Shown one piece after another: positions 1,752 through 64,000 of a stretch of 64,000 nt of DNA. The notes beneath the pieces were generated by a model that was not told the DNA's origin, did not search any database, and saw only the letters and a program-made list of their open reading frames with translations. Origin of the DNA: Watersipora subatra. Its lineage: Eukaryota > Bryozoa > Gymnolaemata > Cheilostomatida > Watersiporidae. The stretch's first letter is position 1. Each line of letters begins with the position of its first letter. Location: assembly GCF_963576615.1 (NCBI RefSeq), contig NC_088716.1, forward strand, positions 56,615,415-56,679,414, written 5' to 3'. A program made the position numbers and the translations under genes.

Positions 1752-4700
1752 CTAACTGAAAAAATATTCAGACTTCTTGACCAGACTGAGGTCAAGATTG
1801 CCCTTTGGAATGACACTCCTTACGAGTCTACCAAGAAACTCGTGTTCGGGGTCGTCTGGGTTGATGTAGTTCTTTACAAAGTAGTCAGAGAGGTTTGAGA
1901 GAATTGGCTGACTGTGTATATCATAAAATGACTCGCGACAGATCTAAAACATGTACAAATACACATGAGTCCTTCATCCAGTCAGTCATCATTCCTAGTC
2001 TCTTGTCAACAAAGCAGTGATGACAATAACAATGAGTTTATAGGTTGTTTGTCATATTTTAGTTAATATTAGTTGTCTTTGATGAACTCCAGAAAACTGT
2101 AAACTGATATAATTTTCTTTTCTACAACTCGAACAGTTAAAAAATAGAAAAACCCTGGTCAAATTGAACAGTAATATGTTGCTTATACTAGTGAAGCAAT
2201 ATGAGGAAGCAATATGAGGTAACACTTGTGCATTATTCTGATAAACTTTTGTGTAAAAGTATTAAACAACTTTAAAGCGTAAGGTAACTATCAGCCCCAG
2301 CTGACTAGAAACTACCTATGAGCATATTTGCCAAGTGACAGTTCCCCCTTTAGTCTACTGCTAACACTACAGCATCCTACCTTGTTCATAGTGTCAATGC
2401 TGTTAGCATGGGTCCAAAAACAGTCATGAATTGATGCAAATGTGATGCCGTGTCGATGGCAACGCAACGCCGTCAACATCATGTGACTGGCATCCAGGGA
2501 GTGAATGAAGTTTGGAGGAAAACCATTTCTGTTTTTATTAACATCAGGTCTCCTATAATGGTATAACAAAGTGGGAAGGTGACAAGTGTCTCTTGGAGAT
2601 TAGGTAGAACGGTAATAGCGAAGATTGTGGGTGTAAGCCCCGTAAAAGTCAACTTATTTATTTTTTGTTTTGATTCTCTTCAACTTTTATACAGGACTTC
2701 TTTTATATGGTCAATACTAGCTATTCTTTTATATGGTCAGTACTAGCTATTCTTTTATATGGTCAATACTAGCTATTCTTTTATATGGTCAATACTAGCT
2801 ATTCTTTTATATGGTCAATACTAGCTATTCTTTTATATGGTCAATACTAGCTATTCTTTTAACCCTATCGCTACCGAGCTCATATGGCGCCGAAGTGCCC
2901 AGTGTACCGAGCCAATTAGTAGCACATTTTGGAGTTCCCAGGCGTCGCCATGTTTCAGTAGGCCACATCTATTAATCTCATTCACTATAATGTTCATGAC
3001 ATCTGAAATTATAATAAGCCTTAAGTAAGTAAATATAATTATCTGGCCAGCAATTCAAACTTTTTATCAAAATGCAAACCTTTTGGTTTCAACTCGACTG
3101 GTTTTTGATATTCATTGTTAGCACCAGTTCTATCGCCAGCAATTTCACTGTCACTTTTGTTTGGTTTTGGTATGAAAAGGATTAATAATATACTGTTAAC
3201 ATTATGCCCTACATATTATACCCACAATTCTACACAAAAATAAAAGTAAAAACAGCCAAAACTTTAGAGGAAACTGAGGCATGACAAGAGAAAGATAGAG
3301 CCAAGAGCAAAGCAGCAACAAGACAATCGGTAACAAGTGTCAAGCATCATGATTCAGAACAAACCAGGAAGCAGGAAGTGTATGACAGGAACTAGGGAAG
3401 CTGAAACCCCTGAGCAAACTCATGTATACCATCAATCAGAGAGAGTTAGCCATTAATAGCATCAAGGTACATACCTAGTTACTGGCAAACTAGATCATTC
3501 TAACGAGGCTAATTGCATACCAGCGGGAGACTGTTCATGGGCATTAAATTTTGCTTAACTTTGACCAAAAAGCACATTACAAAACGAATCATAGGATTTT
3601 TTTTTATCATGAGAATCCTTGTCAAATACACTGAATGTAATGCACTTTGTGTGAAAAATGAACCACCTGGAATTTGTTGCAAAAACCATGAAATCCAAAG
3701 GCGCACTGTGACAGAAAATATTCCACCAATATTGAAGCACCGCCTCCAAAGTAGTAATTTTGATTTTGAGCATTTTTTCCTCACATTCGAAAATACAACA
3801 GCTGATTTCAGCTAACTCCATTCATTTGGAGACAAAACAGTTGATCAACCTGAGTTTATGCAAACATTTAAGGATTGACTTGCAACTAAATTCACATTAC
3901 AGTTATTTGGTATCAAAAGATTCACCATCTCTTTCTCTGCTGTGTTGTAGGTGCAAAATATGTGGAAGTGTGATTACAAGCATCAAAAACGATTAGTTAA
4001 TCGCCGCCACCATGAAAACGCCGTAGGTTGGAATCAATTTATTTCTTTGACGTACTCAAGCAATTTGGTTATTGTTTTGACACGTGATGTTATCATGTGA
4101 ATTGAGAAGCCAATAAAAGGCTCAATATAAAACTTCTCGTAGCACTAGTTTTATAGTTTATGACAAACACTTCAGGTTTTACCAAAAAACCCGTCTCAAA
4201 TATAGATGCTCGCTACTTTACAGTTTTGTTTTGGTCTAATCCTCTAGTCGTAATCTGATCATGTGACCCATACGTCCTGCCAAACAGCGCGAATAATTTT
4301 TGCAGCATTTGTCAACTATTACAGGTGACCAACAGGTTCCTCATGTTTATCAGAGGATGATATGCACTCCTTCGAGCTAAGGTTAAAAAATTAAACGAAT
4401 TTTTACGATGGGTTTTGAGATATTAGTGCTCAAAGTGATAACATTACGATGATGATGAAATAGACGCGTAAGGACAATAGACATGGTTTTATTGAATGCG
4501 AGAAGTATAATTGTGAAAATATTTCGACAAATGATGTTGCATTAAAATTGACACAGAAGCCATCTTGTTCAGCTATGTCCCATTTGAGCCGTTTTGGAAA
4601 GGGATTCCAATATATGGCGTTTTCATGATGATAGCGATTAACGGTTTGTTTTTTAGCTTTTAAGAGTTTGGAATCACATTCCCATATATTTTGCACCTAC

Positions 4701-7700
4701 AACACAGCAGAGTAAAACATGGGGAATCTTTTGATACCAAATAACTGTAATGTGAATTTTGTTGCAAGTAAACCTTCAAGGTTCAAAACCAAGTTTACCA
4801 TTTAATTGGCTCTTTACTTCTATAAATTGGGGTTCTTCACTTGATCATAACTATCAAGTGAAGAACCCCAATTTCTTCAACTTTATTTCATGGTCGATCA
4901 GCAAGAGCAAGCAGAGCATTGTTGAAATTCATTGTTGTTTATGGGATGTTAGGATAATACAATTATAGTTTCATTATTTTGTGATATTTCCCGACAAACG
5001 CACAAAACATTTATCATATTTTCTTGGCTTTCAGATAATATATAGTTTACTGCTTTCAAAATAGTAGTTCCGGAGCTATGAAGTGCAACTTGCGTAAATG
5101 ATAAAACATTTGTGATGTCCCATCATTTACGCATGTTGCACTTCATAGCTCCAGAACTACTATTTTGAAAGCAGTAAATTTTATATTATCTGAAAGCCAA
5201 GAAAGTGTGTGTGTGTGTATTTATTTTCATCAACAGAAACAATACAGAAAAATAAACTGCATATTAGTAAATATATCAGGTTAATTACAAATTAGTGAGA
5301 AAATGAAAAGAGTATAGCAAAATTCACTCAACCTGAGCACGAGATAATGATGATGGAGCCATAGGTGCGCTGTAGCCCAGCTAATGTTGCGCAAGCCCCA
5401 AAAACAGTCAACAGCAGCAGAACAAAGGCAGGCCTCAGCCCACCCTAGTCAGAGAGACAGGAGATAGCATTTTACTTGTTTTTTAAAGTCAAAATTGTTT
5501 ACAATTTTTTTCAACCTGTCAGGTAGATTATTCCAATAAAAGGTTGTTTGATATTGAATAGTTTTTTGCCCAGCACTAGATGTAAACAAGGGAATATGAA
5601 GATTTAGAAGAGAGTGACGAGTACTATAAGAGTGTGTTGGTCCCCCATTCCCAGATGAATAAAATACAGTATGACCCCTTAGCAGCAGCTTTAACGTATA
5701 TAACTTATCTATAGGTAAAATATTAGTTTGAGTAAACAATTCTTTTGATGGATAGTCAAAGGGTTTATGACATATAATTCGCACTAGCTTTTTCTGAAAG
5801 ACTTTAATTTTATTTAAAAATATGTCAGGCGAATTGCCCCAAGATTCGAGGCAGTAAATAAGTTTAGAATTCACCAAGGAGTTATATAATGTAATCATTA
5901 TTTCTCGTGGGAAGTACTTTGATAACCTATAGAAAAGTCCAACCGCTGGACGAAGGTCTTTTAGTATGTTAGATATATGAGTAGACCAATTCAGATTATT
6001 ATCAAGGCTTGCCAAGTACTGCATCATTTAATTCAAATAATTTTATAATGGGAGCAAATGTGCATGTGTAGTGGCATCAAATAACTCTAAATGTCAAAAT
6101 TTTATTTATGAACATATATAACATAAATCCCATATATAACATAGATAATCAATAAATGATATCTGTAATAACAGTAATATATATAATATAAAAGCGCATA
6201 TACTTACTCTACTGACGCGTCGTGGTGAAGGTCAGTGAATCCTGACTCTGATTGGCCATCCTTGTCAGCCTTGAGGCTGCCTGTCCAGTAATTTTGTGTG
6301 ACAGAAAGTCCGAGTGGAGTTTTCCAGGAGACCGGCTTGCCAACGGTAGTTGTGATCTCTTGAGCGCAGAGGGTGAGCCAGTTCTACAATATTTAATAAT
6401 TTAAAATGCTAGTCATCTTTTAACTGACTATTTTAATAAGACAATAACAAAACAACAGCTGTTGTGTTGATTAGCTATGCTAAAAGATATTCTGTGTTGG
6501 TTAGCTATAACGTACAGTCGTATCTCGTATGGCATAAACCTCCTTTTATGAAAATTCCGTTGAACGTAAATATTTGTAAAGTTATCGTATTGCGTAAGAA
6601 ATTTCATATAACGGTAAAGCGATGGAAGACAGCGCAAGTTGTCAAATTCGACTTAAATAACAAAAGCCCCATTGTTAGACTTACAAGTATAATTCTCTCT
6701 CTTGCCACAGCTGGGAGAGAAAATGAAGAATATTATGAAGACAATATCATGAGGCATTTTAGAAAAGTTTTAAAAAGCCGTCAAGGGCGAGTATCATTAA
6801 AGAGGTATTTTAAAAAATACTCATGACGGGGCTGGTTCATCAGAAAAGACGAAAAATTTCGATCAATAAAAAAGTGAGATGAAAAACAAAAAATTTAGAT
6901 AATGCTAAAAAATACAAGTTTGAAAATTTAAAACAATTTCTAGGTTTAGTTCTCATTTTATTGCAGCCATGAAATAAAAAAGTTAAGTATAGTTTTTTTA
7001 TTGTAAAAGGCCAATTGGGTGAGTTAGGAAAGATCTTGAAATTAGGCCGTTTACATTTATTTTACGTTCCGTATAACATAAAAACCCTATAACTTGAATG
7101 CTGTCGGAACGGATTATTTACGTTGTATTTACAGTATATTAATTAGACTGGCAAAGATGAACTCTTCTCTGGTCATTTTTGAACAATAATGGTGCTTTTG
7201 CTGATGCAGATATAATTTATATAAAAGCTCACTGGCCTTCTACAGTACAAAAGTATGCTGATTGTTCAGCTATAACCAAAGAGAGAAGCAGGACAACTGC
7301 TATTGGCTGTCGCTGGAGACTAGCCAGGCGAAGAACAGAGCTACTAATGCAACCTATTTTTTGTTTTTAAAAGCGATATGTAGTGCAATATCGCGCTGTG
7401 TGGGGCCAATCTGCGCTGAAACTCACCCAGCGAGTTGATGATTAGCGATAACGCCAGACTTTCTCAATCAGAACTTTTTTGCACGCAAGATGCATTTCGA
7501 TTGGTTGTTTTACCCAAAATTCATTTTTTTGTGTCAATGTTTAACAACATACAGTTACAACATTTTGATATTTTTTTACGATTGAAACATCATGAAAATG
7601 AACACTGAATCATTCATAGATTTATTAAGAGCACATATACTCCTGCACGACACAACACACAATTACAAAGATCCCCAGTTGAAAACAACATCTGGGAGTC

Positions 7701-10700
7701 AATCATTGTGCAGGTTGACCATCTTGAGAATGGTAACCATAATATTAAAAATGAAAAACTACTATGAAGTAAATTATATATAAAAACTTAAATTTTTTCG
7801 TCAAAATTGTAAGAATCATTTTTTTCTTATGTCTTCTTGTAGTGTGCAATTCGTGAAAGTGAGATAGGCCTAGCAAAAGCAGAAGCTGTTTATGTCGTTG
7901 TCTACAAGGCACCATATTTACTTAAATTTATAAACAACTCCGAAGAAACTCATAATATGGAATTTTATTGGCCGTTTGCAAGCGTGCACGCGTTATCGCT
8001 CGCTGGTGAATCGCCCAAGTGTGTTTAGGCAGACGCCAGCGATATCTCTGCGCTCCTCATGACGCATCCGATAAAATCGAATAGTGTGTTTGCGCCTTCA
8101 GACCTCTTATTGTAAATACAGATTGTCGCAACCATCCATCTTTAATGCATGTGTTAACCTCCTGTCCTAAAAGAACATTGATGAACCTTGGTTAATGAGT
8201 AGATCCATGACCTTCAGAGTTGGTGATACGACATTAAGTGTGACATGAAAAAATATAAAACTCTTTAATATAATTACATGCAATAGTGTTCAAAACCATC
8301 AATTGTTCATATAAAAACATTGTTGCTAATGGCCTATAAATCCCATATTAACAGTTATCTGAAAAAGGACTGGCACAACGAGGTACCCTTAATGACCATG
8401 TACACTTAAGTTGTGCCGTACTTTTCGGACTTCTGATGATTTGAGCCATGCGGCTTATATAAGGGTGCGGCTATTCTGTGGTTTTTTCTTTCACTGCTAG
8501 GGCGCATTAACCAGAATCTCTGACTAGTGCGCCTCTAGCGGTGAAAGAAAATACGAAACAATGTCTAACGGTACTGTTCCATTAGTCACTAGGTTAAAAA
8601 GCGTCGATTAATACGAAACTCTGCCGTTAGGCACTGTTCCGTTTTAAACAGGAAAATTCTGCGGCCTATACAAAGGTGCGTAATATGTATTGTTTTATCA
8701 TTTTTTTGGAAAATAAAGCATATGTGGCTTATATAGGAGTGCGGTTTATAGTCCAAAAAGTACGGAAAGTGTACAGTTTGTGAAGGTATGATAAACATAG
8801 CATATGTATTAGAAGTTGTGACTTGATTTTGAAAAATAAACCCACACAAATAGTATTTTATAGGCTGTGTTTAACTCTAGTGCGTCATGCTGCATTACAC
8901 AATATTAATCCTTTTACTGCCTAACGCAAGTTTGTGCGAAATCTATGATTGACTGTCGTGGACGCATTTTTGCGAAATTTACAGTGGCTGTATAGTAACT
9001 GAATTTTATTGATTCGTGAAAACATAACCAACAAACTTTTGGTACGTTTATGGCAGTAATGTTCGAATAATTCTCATTAGCCTATATTCGTGAAGCAAAT
9101 TATAATCTTTGATCAAAAAATTTGAAAAAGTTGAAAACTTACATTTTTTCTGGCGCTCAAATTTTTTTACTTGGAATTTGATTTCCGCAAGCCCCTCCAG
9201 TTTTAAAAAAGAATAGCTTTTGTTGATGACATTATAGCCGATTCAGATTGAGACATTACTGAATGCTTAGACAATAAAAGTGACAGCATTGACTCTGACA
9301 GTTGTATAAATAATAGTGTTGCAAGAGTAAGAAACATTGTAGAGGACCATAATTGCTTCGTAGCAACTGTAGCTTCACATTGCTTTAGCAATGCACAATA
9401 TATAGATACATTGAATTTTTTTGCAGTTTTGTTCATTAACACGCTGACAACATGAAATGTCGACACCAAAAATTTTTTAAGTAGTGTTTGAAATTGAAAC
9501 AAGTGTTATGCGTATTACGCTGCAAAGTCGACAATTCTGAGTAAAATGGCTGTAGGCGAAAGGTAAATTTGTATATGGATGGCAGTTGAAAGGGTTAAGA
9601 AACAACAATACTCAGTGACAACACAAAATTAATTATTTTTCTGGTCAGAGTATCTTTATTGTCTTCAAACACATTCCTGAGAAGCGAAGAACCAGCGTAC
9701 TCTGTTGACCTTTGACCTGTTGACCTTATTACGCTTTCAGCTGTGAAAGTGAATGTCTAAGACAGATAAGACATCTAAGTCATAAGTGACATCTAAGACA
9801 GTGTCTAAGACAGACAACAATTATAGAGGCTCTCAAGGAAAATAGTGTCATCTAAACAGGACACTTCTTACGAAGCTAGGATGATAAGAGAAGGAAAAGG
9901 AAACATGCCTGTATCTCTGTGCTGCTGATGAACATAGAGGCCATGCTTTCAAATAGCTTGCTAGAGAGATACGCGGAAGCTTTCTGTAGGTTGGCAGATC
10001 CAAGGCCTGGTGATTGTTCAGACAAGTGCTTGTATATCTGCAGCTTGGAGCCGTATTGGGTGACGCCGTAGACTTTGGTCATCACGGTCTGCTTCACTAC
10101 CTGTGCTCAGACCAACATGAGGCATTTACTAACTGTCATTACAGCTGCTCATGGGCACACATGCTACTCAGACCCACATGAGGCATTTACTAACTGTCAC
10201 TACAGCTGCTCATGGACATATGCTAGAGGTTATCACATATATGCATGCGGCATACACTACCAATAATAAGTCATACAAGTTGTACTTGCTTAACGACGGG
10301 GGAGGGGGGGGGGTACGTTCCGTAAGCCCAACGTAACGTGATTCCATTGTTAAACGAACTTCCCTTTCGAGTGTTCGTTGCATAAATCTAGGCTATTCAC
10401 GCTGGTACTTCCTCACCTTTTCTCTTTCTCTACTTTCTATTGAGTTTTTTAATAATAAATGTAAACATTCAAAAAATTAAATTAAATTTTAACTTTTTTC
10501 ATTTAGTTTTTACGTGTGCACGAGTGTTTGAACAAATGTTAGGCTACCGTAGAGTAAATTGTGGTAGATTTTACATATTTTACCCTATTCTTCATGACTA
10601 CTTTCTCAGGATTTCTCTTTTCAATCGGCACTTTTATATAACATAAGCCTTCCTTATAATGCTTCAACTGCAGCATATCTTGTTTTTAACAATTTTCACA

Positions 10701-14464: not shown

Positions 14465-17400
14465 CTACAGAAGCATTAAAAGATTGGACAAAGGGACCTA
14501 CAAATACCGTTTTTGTAGGTTTTTATTGTCATTATGTTTTTAGTGATATTATCCTCTGTAATGCCAACACTTTTTATGTAGTTACTTTCCCACATTGCCA
14601 CCATTCCATGAACTTAGAGCTTCAAGTTTGCACCACACTACGAAGTTATTTTCCTACATTACCACAACATTATGGAGTTATTGTCTGACACTGGCACCAC
14701 TTCATGTAGTTGTTGTTCTACTAAGACCTTGTTCGATAGTATTTTTAGGAGCTAGATTATGGAATCATAATAACATTATGTTTTTAGTGATATTAGGTCA
14801 TCTTGTACACATGTGTACATGTGAAGAGCATGATTGGAATAGAAATGACTAAAAATGCAAACAACCTAGGCGATTTTATCATGTGCGTCATGAGTGCGGA
14901 GATATCGCTGGCGTGTACCTAATCACGCTTGAGCGATCCACCAGCAAACGATAACGCGGGCACACGCACAAACTGCCAATAAAATTCCGTATCATCAGAT
15001 TTTTCAGAGTTGTTAATAAATTTAAGCAAGTATGGCCCCTTCTTGACAACGACATAAACACCTGCTTTTGTTATTGGACCTATCGCACTTTCACGAATTA
15101 TACACTACAAAGTCATAAGAAAAACGATGATTGTATTTTAACAGTAATATTTTACGATGTTTATATATAATTTACTTTATGGTATTCTTTATTTTTAATA
15201 TAATAAATATTTACTATTCTCATGATAGTCAATATGCGCAATGATTGACTTCCAAATGTTGGTTTCCAATTGTGTTGTTTGTAGTTTTTGTGTGTTGTGT
15301 CAGGATTGGGTGTGCTCTTATTGAATCTATGAACAATTCAGTGCGCTTTTTGATGACATTTTAATCGCAACAAAATAGCAAAATGTTGTTGATGTCCGTA
15401 GGTGAATATTGACACACAAAAATTAAAAGCCAGAGTATTGCATTCTGGGAAAAACAACCTATCAAAATGCACCTCACGCGCAATAAGGTTCTAATAGAGA
15501 AAGTCTAGCATTATCGCCAGCATCAACTCGCTGGATGAATTCTAGCGCAGATTGGTACCACGCCGCGCAGCATCTTGCTACATATCGCCTAGTGTGTTTG
15601 AGCCTTAACAGCTGAATTACAGGATGAAACAAAACTACATGTACTTGCACATATTTGCTCTGGCTCTGCCTTTGACTATGCATTAAACACTGGTGATTGA
15701 AATAAAGCAATTAATTCAGTGCAAGAATTGTCATGCTTACCTACACAGTGCTGCAAGAAGAACCATGCACTGTGTTTAGCAAGAACACAAGATGAACAAC
15801 CTACTGTTAGAGAGGAGGAAGGGACCTCGATGTTGGACCCTCCATGGTACAGGAGGAATGACCATGGGCACACAATCCACTTCAATAATATGTCTCCTCA
15901 GTTTAGCTTCATTTACTGCCCTGACAATGCTTGGGTGAGGCTACAAGGAGATTGGATACGAGGAGATTGGATACGAGGAGATTGGACACGAGGAGGTTGG
16001 ATACGAGGAGATTGGATACGAGGAGATTGGATACGAGGAGATTGGATACGAGGAGGTTGCATACGAGGAAATTGGATACGAGGAGATTGGATACGAGGAG
16101 GTTGGATACGAATAGATTGGATACGAGGAGGTTGGATAGGAGGAGATTGGATACGAGGAGATTAGATACGAGGAGGTTGGATACGAGGAGATTGGATACG
16201 AGGAGATTGGATACGAGGAGATTGGATACGAGGAGATTGGATACGAGGAGATTGGACACGAGGAGATTGGATACGAGGAGATTGGATACGAGGTTGGATA
16301 CGAGGAGATTGGATACGAGGAGATTGGACACGAAGAGATTGGATACGAGGAGATTGGATACGAGGAGATTGGACACGAAGAGATTGGATACGAGGAGATT
16401 GGATACGAGGAGATTGGATACGAGGAGATTGGATACGAGGAGATTGGATACGAGAATATTGGATACGAGGAGATTGGATACGAGGAGATTGGATACGAGG
16501 AGATTGGATACGAGAATATTGGATACGAGGAGGATGGATACGAGGAGATTGGATACGAAGAGATTGGATACGAGGAGGTTGGATAGGAGGAGATTGGATA
16601 CGAGAAGATTGGATACGAGGAGATTGGATACGAGGAGATTGGATACGAGGAGATTGGATACGAGATTGGATACGAGGAGATTGGATACGAGGAGATTGGA
16701 TACGAGGAGATTGGATACGAGGAGATTGGATACGAGGAGATTGGACACGAGGAGATTGGATACGAGGAGATTGGATACGAGGAGATTGGACACGAAGAGA
16801 TTGGATACGAGGAGATTGGATACACAGAAATGAAGGCTCTAACAGTTGTTTATATTAGGCACTGAGGAAAGGAAGTGAATAATATCAAAAATGGCCTATA
16901 AGAGTTAAAAAAGTAGACAATTACACTAGGGATATAATGAATTGAGTGGGTTATCATGAAATGCATGGAATAGCTGAGTGACATGCTATTGCTGGTTTTG
17001 AAAAGGTCACCTTCACAAAATACTGCTAAACATGGGTAGCATTTCACATTGCATGTAAACATTCATACAGCCCAAAGTCGGAATGATTTGTGGTAACCTG
17101 CTTTTTAACTCGCTAGAATGACAATAAGAAACATATTCAGCAGTCACGTTAACCTTGAGATCTGCTGACCAATAATATTGCAAATAATATATACGGATAC
17201 CACATTTATGTAAGCTGAATTACTATGGCTACATTCAGTTCTAATACAATTTGGAACAATTTGGACATGCATATCTTCGAATTTGAAAAACTGATTAAAC
17301 AACCAAACAAAGGGGAAAGGAAGGAATTGGGCGAAGTAAAACATATGGACAGGATGAACATGCACATGTAGAAGTTTTACCTTGACTTGCTTGGCACGCT

Positions 17401-37300: not shown

Positions 37301-40300
37301 CTTCTATTTCATATTTTTATATAAAAATAAAAATACTGTATATAAAATACATAAATTTTTGATATTATTAAAACAAACATAATTAAAATAATATAATTTT
37401 ATATAGAATATAAATATATTTTTTATTTTCAAATATACAATAAAATGTATTTTGTATTTAAAAAATATGAAATAAAATTTTCATTTCATTTTATATTTTT
37501 TCTGTCTCTTCATTTGTTGTTGCTTATCGTCTGAGTCTAAAGTTGACCTGAACCTTTTTTACTGTCATGAATGTTGCCACTTTTTATTTTAGTGGTTCAA
37601 GCTGGTGATAGATTTGGATGGGGCGTACAGTACCCTCCTCCTATCATCGATGGTGGAGTTGTAAAACAGCCTATACTATGTTGTGTGGCTCTCAACGGTG
37701 CATTTCAGACTAGTGTTTGCTACTTGGAACCTGAGGGCGGTTACTATCCCTTTGTAGCTTTTACTCCACAAGGTAAAGCATTTGCCATTGTTTCTTACAT
37801 TGTATACACACATTTTAAGGGTAGCAATCAGTACCAGACTAATAAAAATTTATATTTTTAAGATTTCCGGTTACGAATTAATAGCTCAGCAAAACAGCTA
37901 CCCTTTCCTCTCCAATCAGCACAGGCGGATGAGCATGTTTCTGTGTTAAGACAACTCCTTACAATGGAAAGAGAAAACAGAGGTAGTTATCCTACTCGAT
38001 TTTTTTAGTTTCTTTCTCGTTTCTTAACTCGCTGCTCCTTTCACCTTGGATAATTTTTTTAATTCACTTAAATTTAATTTACTCAATTACACTGCTTGAA
38101 CACTGTTCATGATTTGTCATCTCAACTTTTAAGCACAACTCAAGTTGAGATGATTGTCTTGAAAAAAATTTTGTCTGTGTTCATTATACGTTTGCATAGA
38201 CTATAACAGACAAGCTTTAAATAGCCTCTAACCAAATATTTGTTTGAATGACATTTTAGAGCTAAATTCAACCGACTTGGCATACTCAAGCGATTTGGAT
38301 GTCGATATCCAGTTAGATCATGTCACAGTTTCTCTTCAAGAGGATACTGTAGGTGTTCACACTCTCCAGTATCTTGGACACCCATTGACAAAGGAAAGGC
38401 CTGTCTTCCAAGTAAACATCACTAAACTCAGTAAGGAGTTGTGTTCTCTCATCTTTATTGGTAACTTTAGAAGTAAAAAAATTTGTTTATGCTTTAAATT
38501 CTTGCACTTGATTAAAGTAGACAACTCAACACACACTAAAGTAGACAACTCGACACATACACTAAAGTAGACAACTCGACATACACTAAAGTAGACAACT
38601 CGACACACACACTAAAGTAGACAACTCAACACACACTAAAGTAGACAACTCGTTACATACACTAAAGTAGACAACTCGACACATACACTAAAGTAGACAA
38701 CTCGACACATACACTAAAGTAGACAACTCAACACACACTAAAGTAGACAACTCAACACACACTAAAGTAGACAACTCGTTACATACACTAAAGTAGACAA
38801 CTCGACACACACACTAAAGTAGACAACTCGACACACACTAAAGTAGACAACTCGTTACATACACTAAAGTAGACAACTCGACACATACACTAAAGTAGAC
38901 AACTCGACACATACACTAAAGTAGACAACTCGACACACACACTAAAGTAGACAACTCGACACATACACTAAAGTAGACAACTCGACACATACACTAAAGT
39001 AGACAACTCGACACATACACTAAAGTAGACAACTCGACACATACACTAAAGTAGACAACTCGACACATACAGTAAAGTAGACAACTCGACACACACTAAA
39101 GTAGACAACTCGTTACATACACTAAAGTAGACAACTCGACACATACACTAAAGTAGACAACTCGACACATACACTAAAGTAGACAACTCGACACACACAC
39201 TAAAGTAGACAACTCGACACATACACTAAAGTAGACAACTCGACACATACACTAAAGTAGACAACTCGACACATACTATAAAGTAGACAACTCGACACAT
39301 ACACTAAAGTAGACAACTCGACACACACACTAAAGTAGACAACTCGACACATACACTAAAGTAGACAACTCGACACATACACTAAAGTAGACAACTCGAC
39401 ACATACACTAAAGTAGACAACTCGACACATACACTAAAGTAGACAACTCGACACACACTAAAGTAGACAACTCGTTACATACACTAAAGTAGGCAACTCA
39501 ACACATACACTAAAGTAGACAACTCAACACACACTAAAGTAGACAACTCGTTACATACACTAAAGTAGACAACTCGACACATACACTAAAGTAGACAACT
39601 CGACACATACACTAAAGTAGACAACTCGACACACACACTAAAGTAGACAACTCGACACATACACTAAAGTAGACAACTCGACACACACTAAAGTAGACAA
39701 CTCGACACATACACTAAAGTAGACAACTCGACACATACACTAAAGTAGACAACTCGACACAAACACTAAAGTAGACAACTCAACACATACACTAAAGTAG
39801 ACAACTCGACACATACACTAAAGTAGACAACTCGTTACATACACTAAAGTAGACAACTCGACACATACACTAAAGTAGACAACTCGTTACATACACTAAA
39901 GTAGACAACCCGGCACATACACTAAAGTAGACAACTCGTTACATACACTAAAGTAGGCAACTCAACACATACACTAAAGTAGACAACTCAACACACACTA
40001 AAGTAGACAACTCGTTACATACACTAAAGTAGACAACTCAACACATACACTAAAGTAGACAACTCAACACACACTAAAGTAGACAACTCGTTACATACAC
40101 TAAAGTAGACAACTCGACACATACACTAAAGTAGACAACTCGACACACACACTAAAGTAGACAACTCGACATATACACTAAAGTAGACAAGTCGACACAT
40201 ACACTAAAGTAGACAACTCGACACACACACTAAAGTAGACAACTCAACACACACTAAAGTAGACAACTCGTTACATACACTAAAGTAGACAACTCGACAC

Positions 40301-43300
40301 ATACACTAAAGTAGACAACTCGACACATACACTAAAGTAGACAACTCAACACATACACTAAAGTAGACAACTCGTTACATACACTAAAGTAGACAACTCG
40401 ACACATACACTAAAGTAGACAACTCGTTACATACACTAAAGTAGACAACTCGACACATACACTAAAGTAGACAACCCGGCACATACACTAAAGTAGACAA
40501 CTCGTTACATACACTAAAGTAGACAACTCAACACATACACTAAAGTAGACAACTCAACACACACTAAAGTAGACAACTCGTTACATACACTAAAGTAGAC
40601 AACTCAACACATACACTAAAGTAGACAACTCAACACACACTAAAGTAGACAACTCGTTACATACACTAAAGTAGACAACTCGACACATACACTAAAGTAG
40701 ACAACTCGACACACACACTAAAGTAGACAACTCGACATATACACTAAAGTAGACAAGTCGACACATACACTAAAGTAGACAACTCGACACACACACTAAA
40801 GTAGACAACTCAACACACACTAAAGTAGACAACTCGTTACATACACTAAAGTAGACAACTCGACACATACACTAAAGTAGACAACTCGACACATACACTA
40901 AAGTAGACAACTCAACACATACACTAAAGTAGACAACTCGACACATACACTAAAGTAGACAACTCGACACATACACTAAAGTAGACAACTCGACACATAC
41001 ACTAAAGTAGACAACTCGACACATACACTAAAGTAGACAACTCGACACATATACTAAAGTAGACAACTCGACACATACACTAAAGTAGACAACTCGACAC
41101 ATACACTAAAGTAGACAACTCGACACATACACTAAAGTAGACAACTCGACATATACACTAAAGTAGACAACTCGACACATATACTAAAGTAGACAACTCG
41201 ACACATACACTAAAGTAGACAACTCGACACACACACTAAAGTAGACAACTCGACACATACACTAAAGTAGACAACTCGACACACACTAAGGTAGACAACT
41301 CGACACATACACTAAAGTAGACAACTCGACACATACACTAAAGTAGACAACTCGACACATAGACTAAAGTAGACAACTCGACACATATACTAAAGTAGAC
41401 AACTCGACACATACACTAAAGTAGACAACTCGACACATACACTAAAGTAGACAACTCGACACATACACTAAAGTAGACAACTCGACATATACACTAAAGT
41501 AGACAACTCGACACATACACTAAAGTAAACAACTCGACATATACACTAAAGTAGGCAACTCGACACATACACTAAAGTAGACAACTCGACACATACACTA
41601 AAGTAGACAACCCGACACAAACACTAAAGTAGACAACTCGACACAAACACTAAAGTAGACAACTGGACACAAACACTAAAGTAGACAACTCGACACACAC
41701 ACTAAAGTAGACAACTGGACACATACACTAAAGTAGACAACTCGACACATACACTAAAGTAGACAACTTGACACATACACTAAAGTAGACAATTCAACAC
41801 ATACTAAAGGGGACAACTCGACACATACACTAAAGTAGACAACTCAACACATACTAAAGGGGACAACTCGACACACACACTAAAGTAGACAACTCGACAC
41901 ATACACTAAAGTAGACAACTCGACACATACACTAAAGTAGACAATTCAACACATACTAAAGGGGACAACTCGACACATACACTAAAGTAGACAACTCAAC
42001 ACACACTAAAGTAGACAACTCGTTACATACACTAAAGTAGACAACTCGACACATACACTAAAGTAGACAACTCGACACACACACTAAAGTAGACAACTCG
42101 ACATATACACTAAAGTAGACAAGTCGACACATACACTAAAGTAGACAACTCGACACACACACTAAAGTAGACAACTCAACACACACTAAAGTAGACAACT
42201 CGTTACATACACTAAAGTAGACAACTCGACACATACACTAAAGTAGACAACTCGACACATACACTAAAGTAGACAACTCAACACATACACTAAAGTAGAC
42301 AACTCGACACATACACTAAAGTAGACAACTCGACACATACACTAAAGTAGACAACTCGACACATACACTAAAGTAGACAACTCGACACATACACTAAAGT
42401 AGACAACTCGACACATATACTAAAGTAGACAACTCGACACATACACTAAAGTAGACAACTCGACACATACACTAAAGTAGACAACTCGACACATACACTA
42501 AAGTAGACAACTCGACATATACACTAAAGTAGACAACTCGACACATATACTAAAGTAGACAACTCGACACATACACTAAAGTAGACAACTCGACACACAC
42601 ACTAAAGTAGACAACTCGACACATACACTAAAGTAGACAACTCGACACACACTAAGGTAGACAACTCGACACATACACTAAAGTAGACAACTCGACACAT
42701 ACACTAAAGTAGACAACTCGACACATAGACTAAAGTAGACAACTCGACACATATACTAAAGTAGACAACTCGACACATACACTAAAGTAGACAACTCGAC
42801 ACATACACTAAAGTAGACAACTCGACACATACACTAAAGTAGACAACTCGACATATACACTAAAGTAGACAACTCGACACATACACTAAAGTAAACAACT
42901 CGACATATACACTAAAGTAGGCAACTCGACACATACACTAAAGTAGACAACTCGACACATACACTAAAGTAGACAACCCGACACAAACACTAAAGTAGAC
43001 AACTCGACACAAACACTAAAGTAGACAACTGGACACAAACACTAAAGTAGACAACTCGACACACACACTAAAGTAGACAACTGGACACATACACTAAAGT
43101 AGACAACTCGTTACATACACTAAAGTAGACAACTCGACACATACACTAAAGTAGACAACTCGACACACACACTAAAGTAGACAACTCGACATATACACTA
43201 AAGTAGACAAGTCGACACATACACTAAAGTAGACAACTCGACACATATACTAAAGTAGACAACTCGACACATACACTAAAGTAGACAACTCGACACATAC

Positions 43301-46300
43301 ACTAAAGTAGACAACTCGACACATACACTAAAGTAGACAACTCGACATATACACTAAAGTAGACAACTCGACACATATACTAAAGTAGACAACTCGACAC
43401 ATACACTAAAGTAGACAACTCGACACACACACTAAAGTAGACAACTCGACACATACACTAAAGTAGACAACTCGACACACACTAAGGTAGACAACTCGAC
43501 ACATACACTAAAGTAGACAACTCGACACATACACTAAAGTAGACAACTCGACACATAGACTAAAGTAGACAACTCGACACATATACTAAAGTAGACAACT
43601 CGACACATACACTAAAGTAGACAACTCGACACATACACTAAAGTAGACAACTCGACACATACACTAAAGTAGACAACTCGACATATACACTAAAGTAGAC
43701 AACTCGACACATACACTAAAGTAAACAACTCGACATATACACTAAAGTAGGCAACTCGACACATACACTAAAGTAGACAACTCGACACATACACTAAAGT
43801 AGACAACCCGACACAAACACTAAAGTAGACAACTCGACACAAACACTAAAGTAGACAACTGGACACAAACACTAAAGTAGACAACTCGACACACACACTA
43901 AAGTAGACAACTGGACACATACACTAAAGTAGACAACTCGACACACACACTAAAGTAGACAACTGGACACATACACTAAAGTAGACAACTCGACACATAC
44001 ACTAAAGTAGACAACTTGACACATACACTAAAGTAGACAATTCAACACATACTAAAGGGGACAACTCGACACATACACTAAAGTAGACAACTCAACACAT
44101 ACTAAAGGGGACAACTCGACACACACACTAAAGTAGACAACTCGGCACATACACTGCAGTAGACAACCCAACACAAACACTAAAGTAGACAACTCGACAC
44201 AAACACTAAAGTAGACAACTCGACACATACACTAAAGTAGACAACTGGACACAAACACTAAAGTAGACAACTCGACACACACACTAAAGTAGACAACTGG
44301 ACACATACACTAAAGTAGATAACTCGACACATACATGTAGGTTAGACGCACAAGTGATCGCTGGCGGATGCTTGTTTGTCTTTTGCACTCATGTTAGCTG
44401 CTATGCTTCGACGGGTTTTATTTCATTGTAATTGAACAGAATGCAATTTTAGTCAATTTGAAACAGTTTGTCTTTGCTAGGGCATTTAGCTTTAAAGTCA
44501 TTATTGTGTACCCGGGCTGCGATTGCGCCATTGTCACCAAATTTTGTTTTAACCAGAATATACTTACAGAAAGTGTTTGATGTTCTTTAGTTGCTATTTG
44601 GTTTCATTTTTCTTTTATTCACTTTATTTTTACCGCTCGTTGTAGCTGAAGATGCAGTGCTTTGTGTTGGAGTTGCGAGCAAGTTCACTTCAAGCAATAA
44701 ATATCCTGGTAGAGAATTATCGTCTCTCGGCTATCACTCGAGAGATGGAAAGATTCTTTACGATGGAAGATCACAGGCAAACACACAAGGTCACAGGTTT
44801 ACGGAAGGTACTCGAAGAAGCCATGTAATGCAAGCGAGTATTGCGACGAACTACTAGTTTATAAGCATTGTGTCGTCTTTGCTTTGCCACAATGAGTGTA
44901 ATAGAAGCTTGTTTTGTCAGGTGACCAGGTGATGATTGAACTTTGCCCTCTCTCCAAATCAGCTAAAACTATTATGGTGAGGGTGTGGAAAAATGAGCTT
45001 CCGGTTGCGCTTCGATACCTGGACATAAGAAGTCAGTCACACCTTTATCCCACAGTCTCTCTCTATACCAGCGGCTCAACAATTTCCTGTGAGGTTATAA
45101 CTCCTAACATGATAGAGCAACTCCCAACCTACTTTGTAAGTATTCATTGGTTGCAGGTGTAAGACAGTTCATTAGTTTTAGAAGACTGTCTTATGTATAA
45201 TGTAATGATGTTTTATAAGAATAATGTAGAATTACTCCATCTCTCCGATCAATATAATGTTTGTGAGAATGGCATGCATGTTTGACTCCTGTATTTCCCT
45301 TCCTTTTTTTCTCTCATGCTTTTTCTCTTTCCTTTTCTCGCTTCTTTTTGGTTGCTCTCTTTCTCTCTGTCTATCGTTCTCTGTTTCTTTCCTTTATTTC
45401 TTCCCTTTTTCCTTCTTTCTCTCTTTTTTTCTTTCTTTTCTTTCTTACTTTTTCTCTGTTTGCCCCTAGAGTTGGAGTTGTTTCTCCTCTTTGTTTTTTC
45501 TTTCTCTTGCTTTCTTTTACTCTCTGTTATCTTTTTGCTTTATAATTCAGGTAAACAACCCAGAATATTGGTGTCTGCCTTCTAACGCCCATGTCCTGGC
45601 TGACTCAACTGATGTCATTCTCTCAAATCAAGCCATTACAGGCAACTGTATAGTCTGTCCAGTGCCTATGTCTCGAGGTATGCACCACTTTGAAGTGAGA
45701 GTCTTGGAAGAGCCAACTGACGATGGAGTTGTGCCCCCTATGATAGCACTCACTACAGCTTCCCCGTATGATCCTCCTAGAGAAAGCAATTTTCAGTTAG
45801 ACCTTCTTAGATTTTGGCCTCGCAATGAGGGTGAGTCCCATTTTTCTGTAAGATATAATGGTCCCTGTTTCATAGCAAGCCTTGAATTAGTTTATGGTTA
45901 TTAGTGTGCAGCCACAGTATCAATCTAATTTGTATAATCTCTTCAGATAATTCAGTTTGATTCTGATAAACTCATGTACTTCACAGGAAATGTTGAGATG
46001 TGATTGTTGGATTCACAACAGACTTCTGTAAAACATTGTGCTTTGAGACCTCTTATTTCTATTATATAACGAAGTATTTTTTAGGTTTTATTCACACGGA
46101 CTGTAAGTAGCCTTTATCCAAAGATAGTGAGCCATGACCAATATTCTGCACAGAGCCATTTTCCTGCCACCTATATGTTATGCTTGAACACTTTGAAGCA
46201 CCACCATTTGCCTTTCGCTCTGATTGGTCAACTTTAGTTCGCTCTCTTCTATGTTAATATTTTGATAGATCGTTCTATGATCGATAGTTGGTGATATGTT

Positions 46301-60470: not shown

Positions 60471-60701
60471 TAGTTGTCTCATCATGTAGTCTCAGCAGTA
60501 CTCACACCTATTCCTATTCTTTTTTTCCACTCTCCATCCTTCAGGCAGATTTGTGTGCACTTAAGGGATTTCCCCGTTTTGTTTCAGAGCTGCTGATGAA
60601 GCTTTTCAATACAATGTTTGCTAGTTTCTATTAGCTAACTTGCTGTTTATTGTTTCAGATTATTGCCCGGCACACAATACCTTCAGAGTGTTATCACAAT
60701 C

Positions 60702-62205
60702 ATGGCTGAAGCAGTTAGCACTGCCCATTGGAAGTCGAGAAAAGATAAACTCACAGAAGATCAGTTGGAAACAGTTAACGCACTTTTAAGTAAGATCTAT
60801 ATTTCAAGAGTTGTACTGATGATATACTTGCATTTAGAGGATATGCAAGTCAAATAGTGACACTTGTCATGGAAGCGAAACTTGTCATAGAAGTGACACC
60901 TAGCATTGAAGTGACCCTTGTTAAAGTGTGTGCAAGAATTTTTTGAAAACATTGCAAGCTTTATTCATTTTCTTTTTTTAGAAAAATTTAAGTACGGCAA
61001 AGATAAAAACGGGAATTTCTTAACAAGAAGTCAGCTGAAAGCGCGGAAAAAAGAAGCTATTAAGCTTGGTAAAGAGCGTAAGTATGTTTTGTTTTAGTAA
61101 CTAAAACATTGTTCTCATGCCTTAAGACAGATCCCTTTCTGTCTCGAGTACTGCACTGCCTATGACCTTGAACTTGGAGCATAGCTGGCATGTAAAACTT
61201 TATACTATGTCGCAGAGGCTCTAACAAAACAAGCTAACACTATCTTTCTTTGGCTCTCATGACTCTGTGGCTGTGTTCTGGTGGTTCATGACATTGACTA
61301 GTGATTTTCATGCAAATGAAATACCCAAGAAAACCTCCGGGCTGAATCAGACAATAGCTATTTAAATATTCTCTTTTATCCTGAACACATCAGCAATCAC
61401 CTAACGTAATAGCAATTGCATGGTTTTCATATAGCGTGAGTTTCATATAGGAAAGTCTGTATCTAAATACTTTATTATTCAAATATCTTATTATCCAAAT
61501 AAAATTGATTTTGAAGAAACTGGTTAGATTAAGATGGAATGCAGAATTTAGCTGTTGTAACATCTATTTGGTAGAATCACTATGGGACCCTTGCATGACC
61601 TTCCAATATGTGCACTTAGCAAGTTCTTTCAACGCCTGCATAGCTTTATGATTTTCTAGACAAGTTAACATTGAAGATCAAAAACTGTTGATCTATGAAC
61701 CACATAATCTGCATGATAGTGTTTTGCAGTCAATCGTTTTAGAACTACTGCACTTGTGCATTTATGGTAGCAGAAAGTTTGACCCCTTTAATCAATACAG
61801 GAAGTGCAAGCTGATGTTTTTTAAAGCCTACGACCATATATGAGATTTAAAAACAGTGTTTACATGACCATGCTTGGCAAGCAGCATACCAAAAACTCAC
61901 AGCCACTCGTGTAAGACAACAGCTTCATGCATGAGCTCTGCTTGATATTAGTTATAACTTTCTGTTTAAACTTCCTTAATATTTTTTCATTTATTTTAAT
62001 ACCACACTTTTTGGAAAAGTGAAAATCAAATTCTCTTGCAAATACTTCTGACCAACGTAGTGCGACACATTGTGGCAGGTATAGTTTTTATTTGCTAACA
62101 TCAACCGGTTATTTTATTCTAGGCAAATTCCAGCCACCGAAGACGGAGATATGCATAACTACATCAGGAAAAATCAAAGAAACTCCTCTTTTATATAATA
62201 CTAAG
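60702..62205 (+). CDS. First three coding exons of an unrecognised lysine-rich protein, continues past the window
   Basis: Exons 60702-60789, 60982-61077 and 62123-62205 join in phase (88, 96 and 83 nt) to give the first 89 residues. Segments read MAEAVSTAHWKSRKDKLTED, then NALLKKFKYGKDKNGNFLTR, then KARKKEAIKLGKERKF, then PLLYNTK. It is strongly basic, with about a quarter Lys or Arg and no signal peptide or membrane segment, suggesting a nuclear or nucleolar protein; I do not recognise the family. Donors are AGTAAG, CGTAAG and AAGGTATAG; acceptors are TTTTTTTAG and TTTATTCTAG. An upstream acceptor at about 60658 (TGTTTCAG) suggests a 5' UTR exon. The next exon must lie beyond 64000. Confidence 0.7.
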
Positions 62206-64000
62206 GTATAGATAGTGAACTTTATAACAGTAAGGTATAGATAGTGGACTTTATAGCAGTTAAGTATAGATAGTGAACTTTATAACTATAAGGTATAGAT
62301 AGAGAACTTTATAACAGTCAGGTATAGATAGTTAACTTTATAACAGTAAGGTATCGATAGTGAACTTTATAACAATAAGGTATAGATAGTGAACTTTATA
62401 ACAGTAAGGTATAACTAGTAAACTTTATAACAGTATGGTATACATAGTGGACTTTATAACAGTCAGGTATAGATAGGGAACCTTATAACAGTAAGGTATA
62501 GATAGTGAACTTTATAACAGTAAGGTATACATAGTGAACTTTATAACAGTAAATTATAGATATTGAACTTTACAACAATAAGGTATAGATAGTGAACTTT
62601 ATAACAGTAAGGTATAGATAGTGAACTTTATAACAGTAAGGTATACATAGTGAACTTTATAACAGTAAATTATAGATATTGAACTTTACAACAACAAGGT
62701 ATAGATAGTGAACTTTATAACAATAAGGTATAGATAGTGAACTTTATAACAGTAAGGTATAGATAGTGAACTTTATAACAGTAAGGTATAGGTAGTGAAC
62801 TTTATAACAATAAGGTATAGATAGTGAACTTTATAACAGTAAATTATAGATATTGAACTTTACAACAATGAGGTATAGATAGTGAACTTTATAACAGTAA
62901 GGTATAGATAGTGAACTTTATAACAATAAGGTATAGATAGTGAACTTTATAACAGTAAGGTATAACTAGTAAACTTTATAACAGTATGGTATAGATAGTG
63001 GACTTTACAACAGTCAGGTATAGATAGTGAACTTTATAACAGTAAATTATAGATATTGAACTTTACAACAATGAGGTATAGATAGTGAACTTTATAACAG
63101 TAAGGTATAGATAGTGAACTTTATAACAGTAAGGTATAGATAGTGGACTTTATAACAATAAGATATAGATAATGGACTTCATAACAGTCAGGTATAGATA
63201 GTGGACTTTATAGCAGTAAAGTATAGATAGTGAACTTTATAACTATAAGGTATAGATAGAGAACTTTATAACAGTCAGGTATAGATAGTTAACTTTATAA
63301 CAGTAAGGTATCGATAGTGAACTTTATAACAATAAGGTATAGATAGTGAACTTTATAACAGTAAGGTATAACTAGTAAACTTTATAACAGTAAATTATAG
63401 ATATTGAACTTTACAACAATAAGGTATAGATAGTGAACTTTATAACAGTAAGGTATAGATAGTGAACTTTATAACAGTAAGGTATACATAGTGAACTTTA
63501 TAACAGTAAATTATAGATATTGAACTTTACAACAACAAGGTATAGATAGTGAACTTTATAACAATAAGGTATAGATAGTGAACTTTATAACAGTAAGGTA
63601 TAGATAGTGAACTTTATAACAGTAAGGTATAGGTAGTGAACTTTATAACAATAAGGTATAGATAGTGAACTTTATAACAGTAAATTATAGATATTGAACT
63701 TTACAACAATGAGGTATAGATAGTGAACTTTATAACAGTAAGGTATAGATAGTGAACTTTATAACAATAAGGTATAGATAGTGAACTTTATAACAGTAAG
63801 GTATAACTAGTAAACTTTATAACAGTATGGTATAGATAGTGGACTTTACAACAGTCAGGTATAGATAGTGAACTTTATAACAGTAAATTATAGATATTGA
63901 ACTTTACAACAATGAGGTATAGATAGTGAACTTTATAACAGTAAGGTATAGATAGTGAACTTTATAACAGTAAGGTATAGATAGTGGACTTTATAACAAT
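62206..64000. repeat. 29 bp minisatellite starting exactly at a 5' splice site, at least 61 copies, runs off the window
   Basis: The exon ends ACTAAG and the intron begins GTATAGATAGTGAACTTTAT then AACAGTAAG, which then repeats. Every full unit contains TAAGGTATAG, a copy of the real donor context CTAAGGTATAG, and just before it CTTTATAACAG, an acceptor-like string. Variant units (CTATAAGG..AGAGAAC, GTATAACTAGTAAAC) recur about 957 bp apart, 33 units, so a block of about 1 kb was duplicated. Confidence 0.97.

Follow-up and report, generated by a model that had tools for sequence, protein, structure and literature searches.

When one exon is followed by more than a hundred further copies of its own donor region, does position alone decide which splice donor is chosen? 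This question is posed by a locus of the bryozoan Watersipora subatra. The window analysed here is a stretch of 64,000 nucleotides of contig NC_088716.1 (C9:56615415-56679414; the assembly, GCF_963576615.1, comprises 783.7 Mb in 239 contigs), and its coordinates are continued downstream to 112000. Near the end of the window, a 29-bp minisatellite overlaps the last bases of exon 3 of a predicted gene for a protein with several CCCH zinc fingers and extends into intron 3. The array is quite probably a splice-junction minisatellite, or "mirage", whose outermost copy acts as the productive donor while the rest lie in the intron as decoys, for the most part ignored. Mirages have been described in amphioxus as minisatellite-like tandem duplications of exon–intron boundaries of both kinds, in which many units hold AG/GT, length is unstable and splicing is regular by reverse transcription PCR (RT-PCR) (PMC3087553), and in further lancelet genes in a paper on PGBD5 (PMC3902484).

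The 29-bp array at the end of exon 3

The features on which the argument turns are the following:

62123..62205, plus strand: exon 3, ending in ...KIKETPLLYNTK, 89 codons from the ATG; exon end homologous in the paralogous stretches L035, L037, L038, L039, L040 and L041
62194..64000 in the window and on to 65625, plus strand: 29-bp minisatellite, from Tandem Repeats Finder (TRF) and unit-by-unit reading
62194..62222, plus strand: unit 0, TATAATACTAAG/GTATAGATAGTGAACTT, 12 nt of exon and 17 nt of intron
62206..62211, plus strand: phase-0 donor of intron 3, GTATAG, containing an in-frame stop codon (TAG) at which the frame ends when a later donor is taken
62206..64000, plus strand: window part of intron 3, whose full length is 11,171 bp

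In the window, TRF reports the array from 62194 to the last base, with 62.2 copies and 0% indels. Sixty-two whole units lie there, each with 0–4 differences from the consensus TATAACAGTAAGGTATAGATAGTGAACTT. With the downstream DNA included, the array comprises 118 units (62194-65625) and reaches 1.6 kb beyond the window. The array noticed by the sequence-only reading is therefore real, in a 29-bp register without indels, and larger than the window showed. Its unit does not begin at the first intron base, as that reading had it. The array starts 12 nt within exon 3 and stays in register across the exon edge, the other start being a choice of phase.

Unit 0 agrees with the consensus at 27 of 29 positions, and both mismatches fall in its exon part. 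These two deviant letters are absent from all of the other 117 units; an edge unit that has escaped homogenisation is a feature of mirages. AGGT is intact in 95 of the 118 units, and the exact donor 9-mer AAGGTATAG is found in 56 (55 of the 117 copies beyond the first). The donor context and the AG/GT boundary, once ascribed to each unit, are thus kept in many or most copies and not in all. An upstream CAG is kept in 77 of the 118 units; its end lies 4 nt upstream of the AG/GT junction in the consensus. The exon part of the consensus, TATAACAGTAAG, shows two differences from the exon end in the window and two from TACAATAGTAAG, the exon end of L040 and L041. Units also repeat in blocks: at an offset of 29 units, 31% of them are identical, which points to block duplication of the ordinary kind and to minisatellite turnover.

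The array has no relatives dispersed over the genome. An assembly-wide pattern search allowing up to 3 mismatches gave 110 matches, none of them on the opposite strand, and a reversed control pattern gave none. Since the same pattern was counted 110 times inside the array, all of the matches lie at this locus, and a dispersed repeat family is ruled out. No match to the 29-bp unit was found in viral contigs, a search of phage records gave nothing, and the Rfam and tRNA scans of the window returned nothing. Elsewhere, an AT-rich 27-bp array on contig C1 (L014:4539-5525) is 67–71% alike to the 29-bp array, likely through composition or a distant link. The matches are AT-rich stretches within the arrays, and the likeness was not used as evidence.

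Paralogs and the host gene

A protein search of the same genome returned 25 places, five of which are the gene's own exons. The others, some of them weak, comprise a cluster on contig C10 together with copies on C4, C1, C2, C5 and a separate part of C9. Thirteen paralogous stretches were compared. Exon 3 could be located in L035, L037, L038, L039, L040 and L041, and the seven stretches in which it was not found (L036 and L042-L047) stand outside the counts that follow. All six have the same exon end (Y/F-N-S/T-K) and a phase-0 intron at that point. The exon ends in YNTK, TACAACACTAAG/GTGAGT, in L038 and L039; in FNSK, TTCAATAGTAAG/GTAAAT, in L035 and L037; in YNSK, TACAATAGTAAG/GTGAAT, in L040; and in YNSK, TACAATAGTAAG/GTATATAG, in L041. 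A CCCH-type exon comes next in each of the six (degenerate in L035 and L037), at a distance of about 140–215 bp by hand count in L035, L038, L040 and L041. TRF, at a score of at least 80, detected no array in the corresponding intron of these six paralogs.

Because six array-free paralogs keep the exon end, the position and the phase, the exon end and the intron predate the array. Conserved coding sequence thus makes up the 12 exon bases of unit 0, and what came later is the array, grown from the donor junction. The earlier proposal that the unit copies a genuine exon–intron junction is borne out by this homology. A different array is found in the C10 cluster itself (C10:51.42-51.56 Mb, L035-L041), where six of the seven stretches, all but L036, carry a 41-bp repeat, partly of 82 bp, upstream of exon 3.

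The gene around the array is predicted from the frame, the splice signals and the paralogs, which back exon 3 and its donor. Its remaining exons are:

60702..60789, plus strand: exon 1, coding, with ATG, open frame and GTAAGA donor; the assembled protein matches C9:56676116-56676214
60982..61077, plus strand: exon 2, with TTTTTTTAG acceptor and GTAAGT donor, frame open across the joins
continued 73377-73544, plus strand: exon 4, first CCCH finger, starting at L010:1377, phase-matched; Pfam zf-CCCH in the joined protein
continued 73746-73967, plus strand: exon 5, with a GC donor
continued 74694-74984, plus strand: exon 6, joining in frame

Exon 1 could be longer, as its frame is open further back by hand reading, to an AG ending at 60658. 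Exons 1–3 form a single frame ending in ...PLLYNTK at 62205, and reading on without splicing leads to NTKV and a stop. The join of exons 3 and 4 has phase 0 on either side, and the six joined exons amount to 948 nt of stop-free open frame. A Pfam scan of the joined protein, taken through exon 5, gave zf-CCCH above the cut-off (PF14608 and PF00642), and comparison with solved structures gave modest matches to CCCH fingers such as those of tristetraprolin and Roquin (best E 8.2e-6). The peptide of exons 1–3 alone matched no Pfam family and no PDB chain. The putative donor of intron 5 is a GC (GAG/GCAAGT, L010:1968, continued 73968), and splicing there would bring the CVYAH of the next exon, which resembles a third CCCH finger, into frame. 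Downstream of exon 6, one 30-bp unit forms two arrays in opposite orientations about 120 bp apart (L010:3075-3537 and L010:3655-4345), and a transcript of both could form a very long hairpin.

Donor choice, seeding and the rival readings

Taken together, the array shows the anatomical features of a mirage, that is, a tandem repeat across an exon–intron boundary that six paralogs support, with AG/GT in many but not all of its units. The anatomy, the homology and the block duplications are observed directly, and the following course of events is proposed. Tandem duplication of a 29-bp segment over the old donor of exon 3 and intron 3 would have come first, followed by expansion to 118 copies within the intron through slippage or unequal exchange, in replication or recombination. 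Judging from the frame, only the outermost copy, which still carries the last four exon codons, would serve as a productive donor. The other copies would be intronic decoys, mostly ignored. Their tie to splicing may be a by-product of the site of seeding, with no function required. Seeding at a junction would need no special cause if introns are short and array-prone, like those of this gene family.

The strength of the donors was scored with a matrix built from 24 family sites, some of the paralog sites being close copies of one another; the tested donor, the near duplicates L037 and L039 and unlocated sites were excluded. The first donor, that of unit 0, scores 6.9, compared with 0.9–11.8 for the 24 family donors, each left out in turn; of the 3328 plus-strand GTs in window positions 1-60000, 1.7% reach this value. 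It is an ordinary, middling donor. Ninety-five of the 118 units score at least 5. Splicing was computed from decoys 1, 2, 3, 4 and 117, and each gave a stop after NTKV, at 90 residues and before the zinc fingers. Any later donor would yield such a truncated protein because the TAG in the first GTATAG is then retained.

Several points weigh against the mirage as proposed. The score of the first donor is shared by 56 of the 118 copies (itself included) and exceeded by 21, so that strength cannot favour the first donor or explain silent decoys. Both the use of the first donor and the silence of the decoys are read from genomic sequence alone. A simple geometric estimate, rough and requiring an overlap of at least 8 nt, indicates that random placement would bring about 2–27% of arrays into contact with either junction (introns of 200–1000 bp, units of 20–40 bp). 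By this figure, chance could suffice without splice sites attracting arrays. A count that does not fit mere chance is that of the donor word [AC]AGGT[AG], found in 10 of 56 independent array families, compared with 2.7 expected from non-array DNA, in a sample (the window, its continuation to 112000, L014 and L035-L047) that is small, non-random and contains the finding itself.

The excess of the donor word is the highest among 360 orderings of its letters. Without grouping into families, the word is found in 14 of 64 arrays, the mean in shuffles being 3.4, with none of 200 shuffles as high. This count raises the idea that splice junctions, donors and acceptors alike, are favoured seeds of minisatellites in this genome from distinctly unlikely to simply unlikely, and it slightly lowers our confidence in the mirage as proposed, which stays probable. 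Under favoured seeding, introns would lengthen from their ends, and the first or last copy would be chosen by nothing but its position, out of dozens of equivalent decoys. Among six arrays in CCCH genes of known direction, the word lies on the gene strand in four (the window array, L042, the 40-bp array of L044 and L046) and on the opposite strand in two (L040 and the 50-bp array of L044). Only two of the ten families that carry the word are placed on a donor or probably on one.

Two further arrays at junctions come from the paralogous stretch L044 (C4:1048001-1058000), and both are read here on its reverse complement. The first, at 8813-9229 (native about 772-1188), is a 30-bp array with the unit TCTAATCTCTTGTAG/TGTGTATATGACAGC; the array's last copy forms the acceptor together with the opening bases of a CCCH exon encoding CVYAH at 9220. 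Reading back from the exon until the register broke gave ten units, nine of them with AG, and the edge copy has 3 differences in 30. Here the finding is mirrored at an acceptor. At 4387-4732 (native 5269-5614), a 40-bp array starts within an ATG-bearing open frame and keeps CAAG/GTATG in six of the eight copies read; this is probably a real donor, which would make the array a second donor case. A paralog thus adds a clear acceptor mirage and a probable donor mirage, so that mirages may be frequent in this genome. Other introns of these CCCH genes also contain arrays that stay clear of a junction. The longest array of the window, a 26-bp repeat with 226 copies (38513-44335), is not tied to a junction here, and a 15-bp array with 59 copies (15942-16823) is crossed by several long open reading frames on both strands.

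It is also improbable that the decoys are used, with a choice among the first few units and the stop in each one lowering or tuning the amount of zinc-finger protein. The donor scores shared with or above that of the first copy, and the uniform computed outcome after NTKV, are compatible with such a role. In human IFI6, downstream repeat units are taken as donors (PMC4526556, in the part consulted). However, the donor part of the unit is kept no better than the rest, its nine positions having 8.6 variant copies per position over 117 units and the remaining positions 6.6. This slightly higher variability gives no sign of selection keeping the decoys. In amphioxus mirages, moreover, the consulted text reports regular splicing undisturbed by RT-PCR (PMC3087553).

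That exon 3 is the terminal exon is very doubtful. The protein would then end in ...NTKV at the in-frame TAG of 62209-62211, and the array would be 3′ untranslated or downstream DNA. The paralogs have a donor at exactly the same codon, followed shortly by a CCCH-type exon, and exon 4 lies in phase. This candidate was rejected on the position of the paralog donor.

Intron gain via tandem duplication of AGGT is reportedly a model of Rogers from 1989, and the sequence-only reading suggested many rounds of this process here. The AG/GT kept along the array agrees with it, and fission yeast genes with several AGGT duplicates have been published (PMC4974935, as far as the consulted text goes). But six paralogs have the same intron in the same place and phase with no array in it, and 571 bp separate the real acceptor from the end of a second array, described below; de novo creation of intron 3 is hardly credible and was rejected, since the repeat lengthened an old intron. 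Equally far-fetched, the units as recursive, ratchet-like splice points for stepwise removal of a long, 11-kb intron, which the CAG before the AG/GT might suggest, were rejected on an acceptor matrix of 21 family sites (2.3–15.2 when left out in turn), where the unit's CAG scores −2.7, a background value reached by 31.5% of the AGs in window positions 1-60000, and the AG that immediately precedes GT scores −14.1.

Growth of intron 3 and comparison with known systems

The 29-bp array is followed directly by a second array with a 42-bp unit and about 171 copies (continued 65617-72805, that is, L009:3617-10000 and L010:1-805). Neighbouring copies match at 98% in the 42-bp array, compared with 88% in the less uniform 29-bp array. 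Together, the two arrays cover 10,600 bp (62206-72805), about 95% of the 11,171 bp of intron 3, and the real acceptor stands 571 bp past the end of the 42-bp array. The intron has grown from about 0.2 to 11 kb, mostly via tandem repeats seeded at a splice junction and not via transposons.

Minisatellites on exon–intron junctions are known. What is new here is an unusually long, well-rooted and extreme example. The amphioxus mirages in Adh3, the globins BflGb6 and BflGb9, TnC and PGBD5 are alike in anatomy, judging by the consulted parts of the reports. BflGb6 has 3 and 6 units of 150–160 bp in two haplotypes, and the Adh3 units measure 10–72 bp, whereas the present array has 118 units of 29 bp, a second array behind it, an 11-kb intron and array-free paralogs. 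Haplotype instability and RT-PCR results are on record for amphioxus, while the array here is known from the sequence of one assembly.

The minisatellite of human IFI6 (6-16) is said to have been described with multiple splice donors by Turri in 1995. Like the array here, it offers many donors, but its downstream units are used, giving isoforms, whereas use of a decoy here would keep a stop codon (PMC4526556, cited also in PMC2572611, both in part). Human CBS carries a 31-bp variable number tandem repeat, c.1444_1467+7, with 16–21 copies (PMC2630376, in part). As read from its name, its unit likewise lies over a donor, with 24 nt of exon and 7 nt of intron; in contrast to the array here, it has fewer copies, more exon per unit and population polymorphism. 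AGGT duplications have been tied to introns in fission yeast (24-bp repeats) and in ATP2A1 (PMC4974935, in part). They share with the present array the tandem duplication of an AGGT segment, but here the intron predates the repeat.

The locus therefore offers a natural competition test, in which one exon faces another 117 copies of its donor region, among which 55 have an identical 9-mer, and the paralogs supply the array-free form. Of the related human arrangements, that of CBS is variable in copy number and that of IFI6 in splicing. If splice junctions were indeed favoured seeds of minisatellites, introns could grow in this way throughout the genome, and the spliceosome's choice among many identical donors would be put to a natural test.
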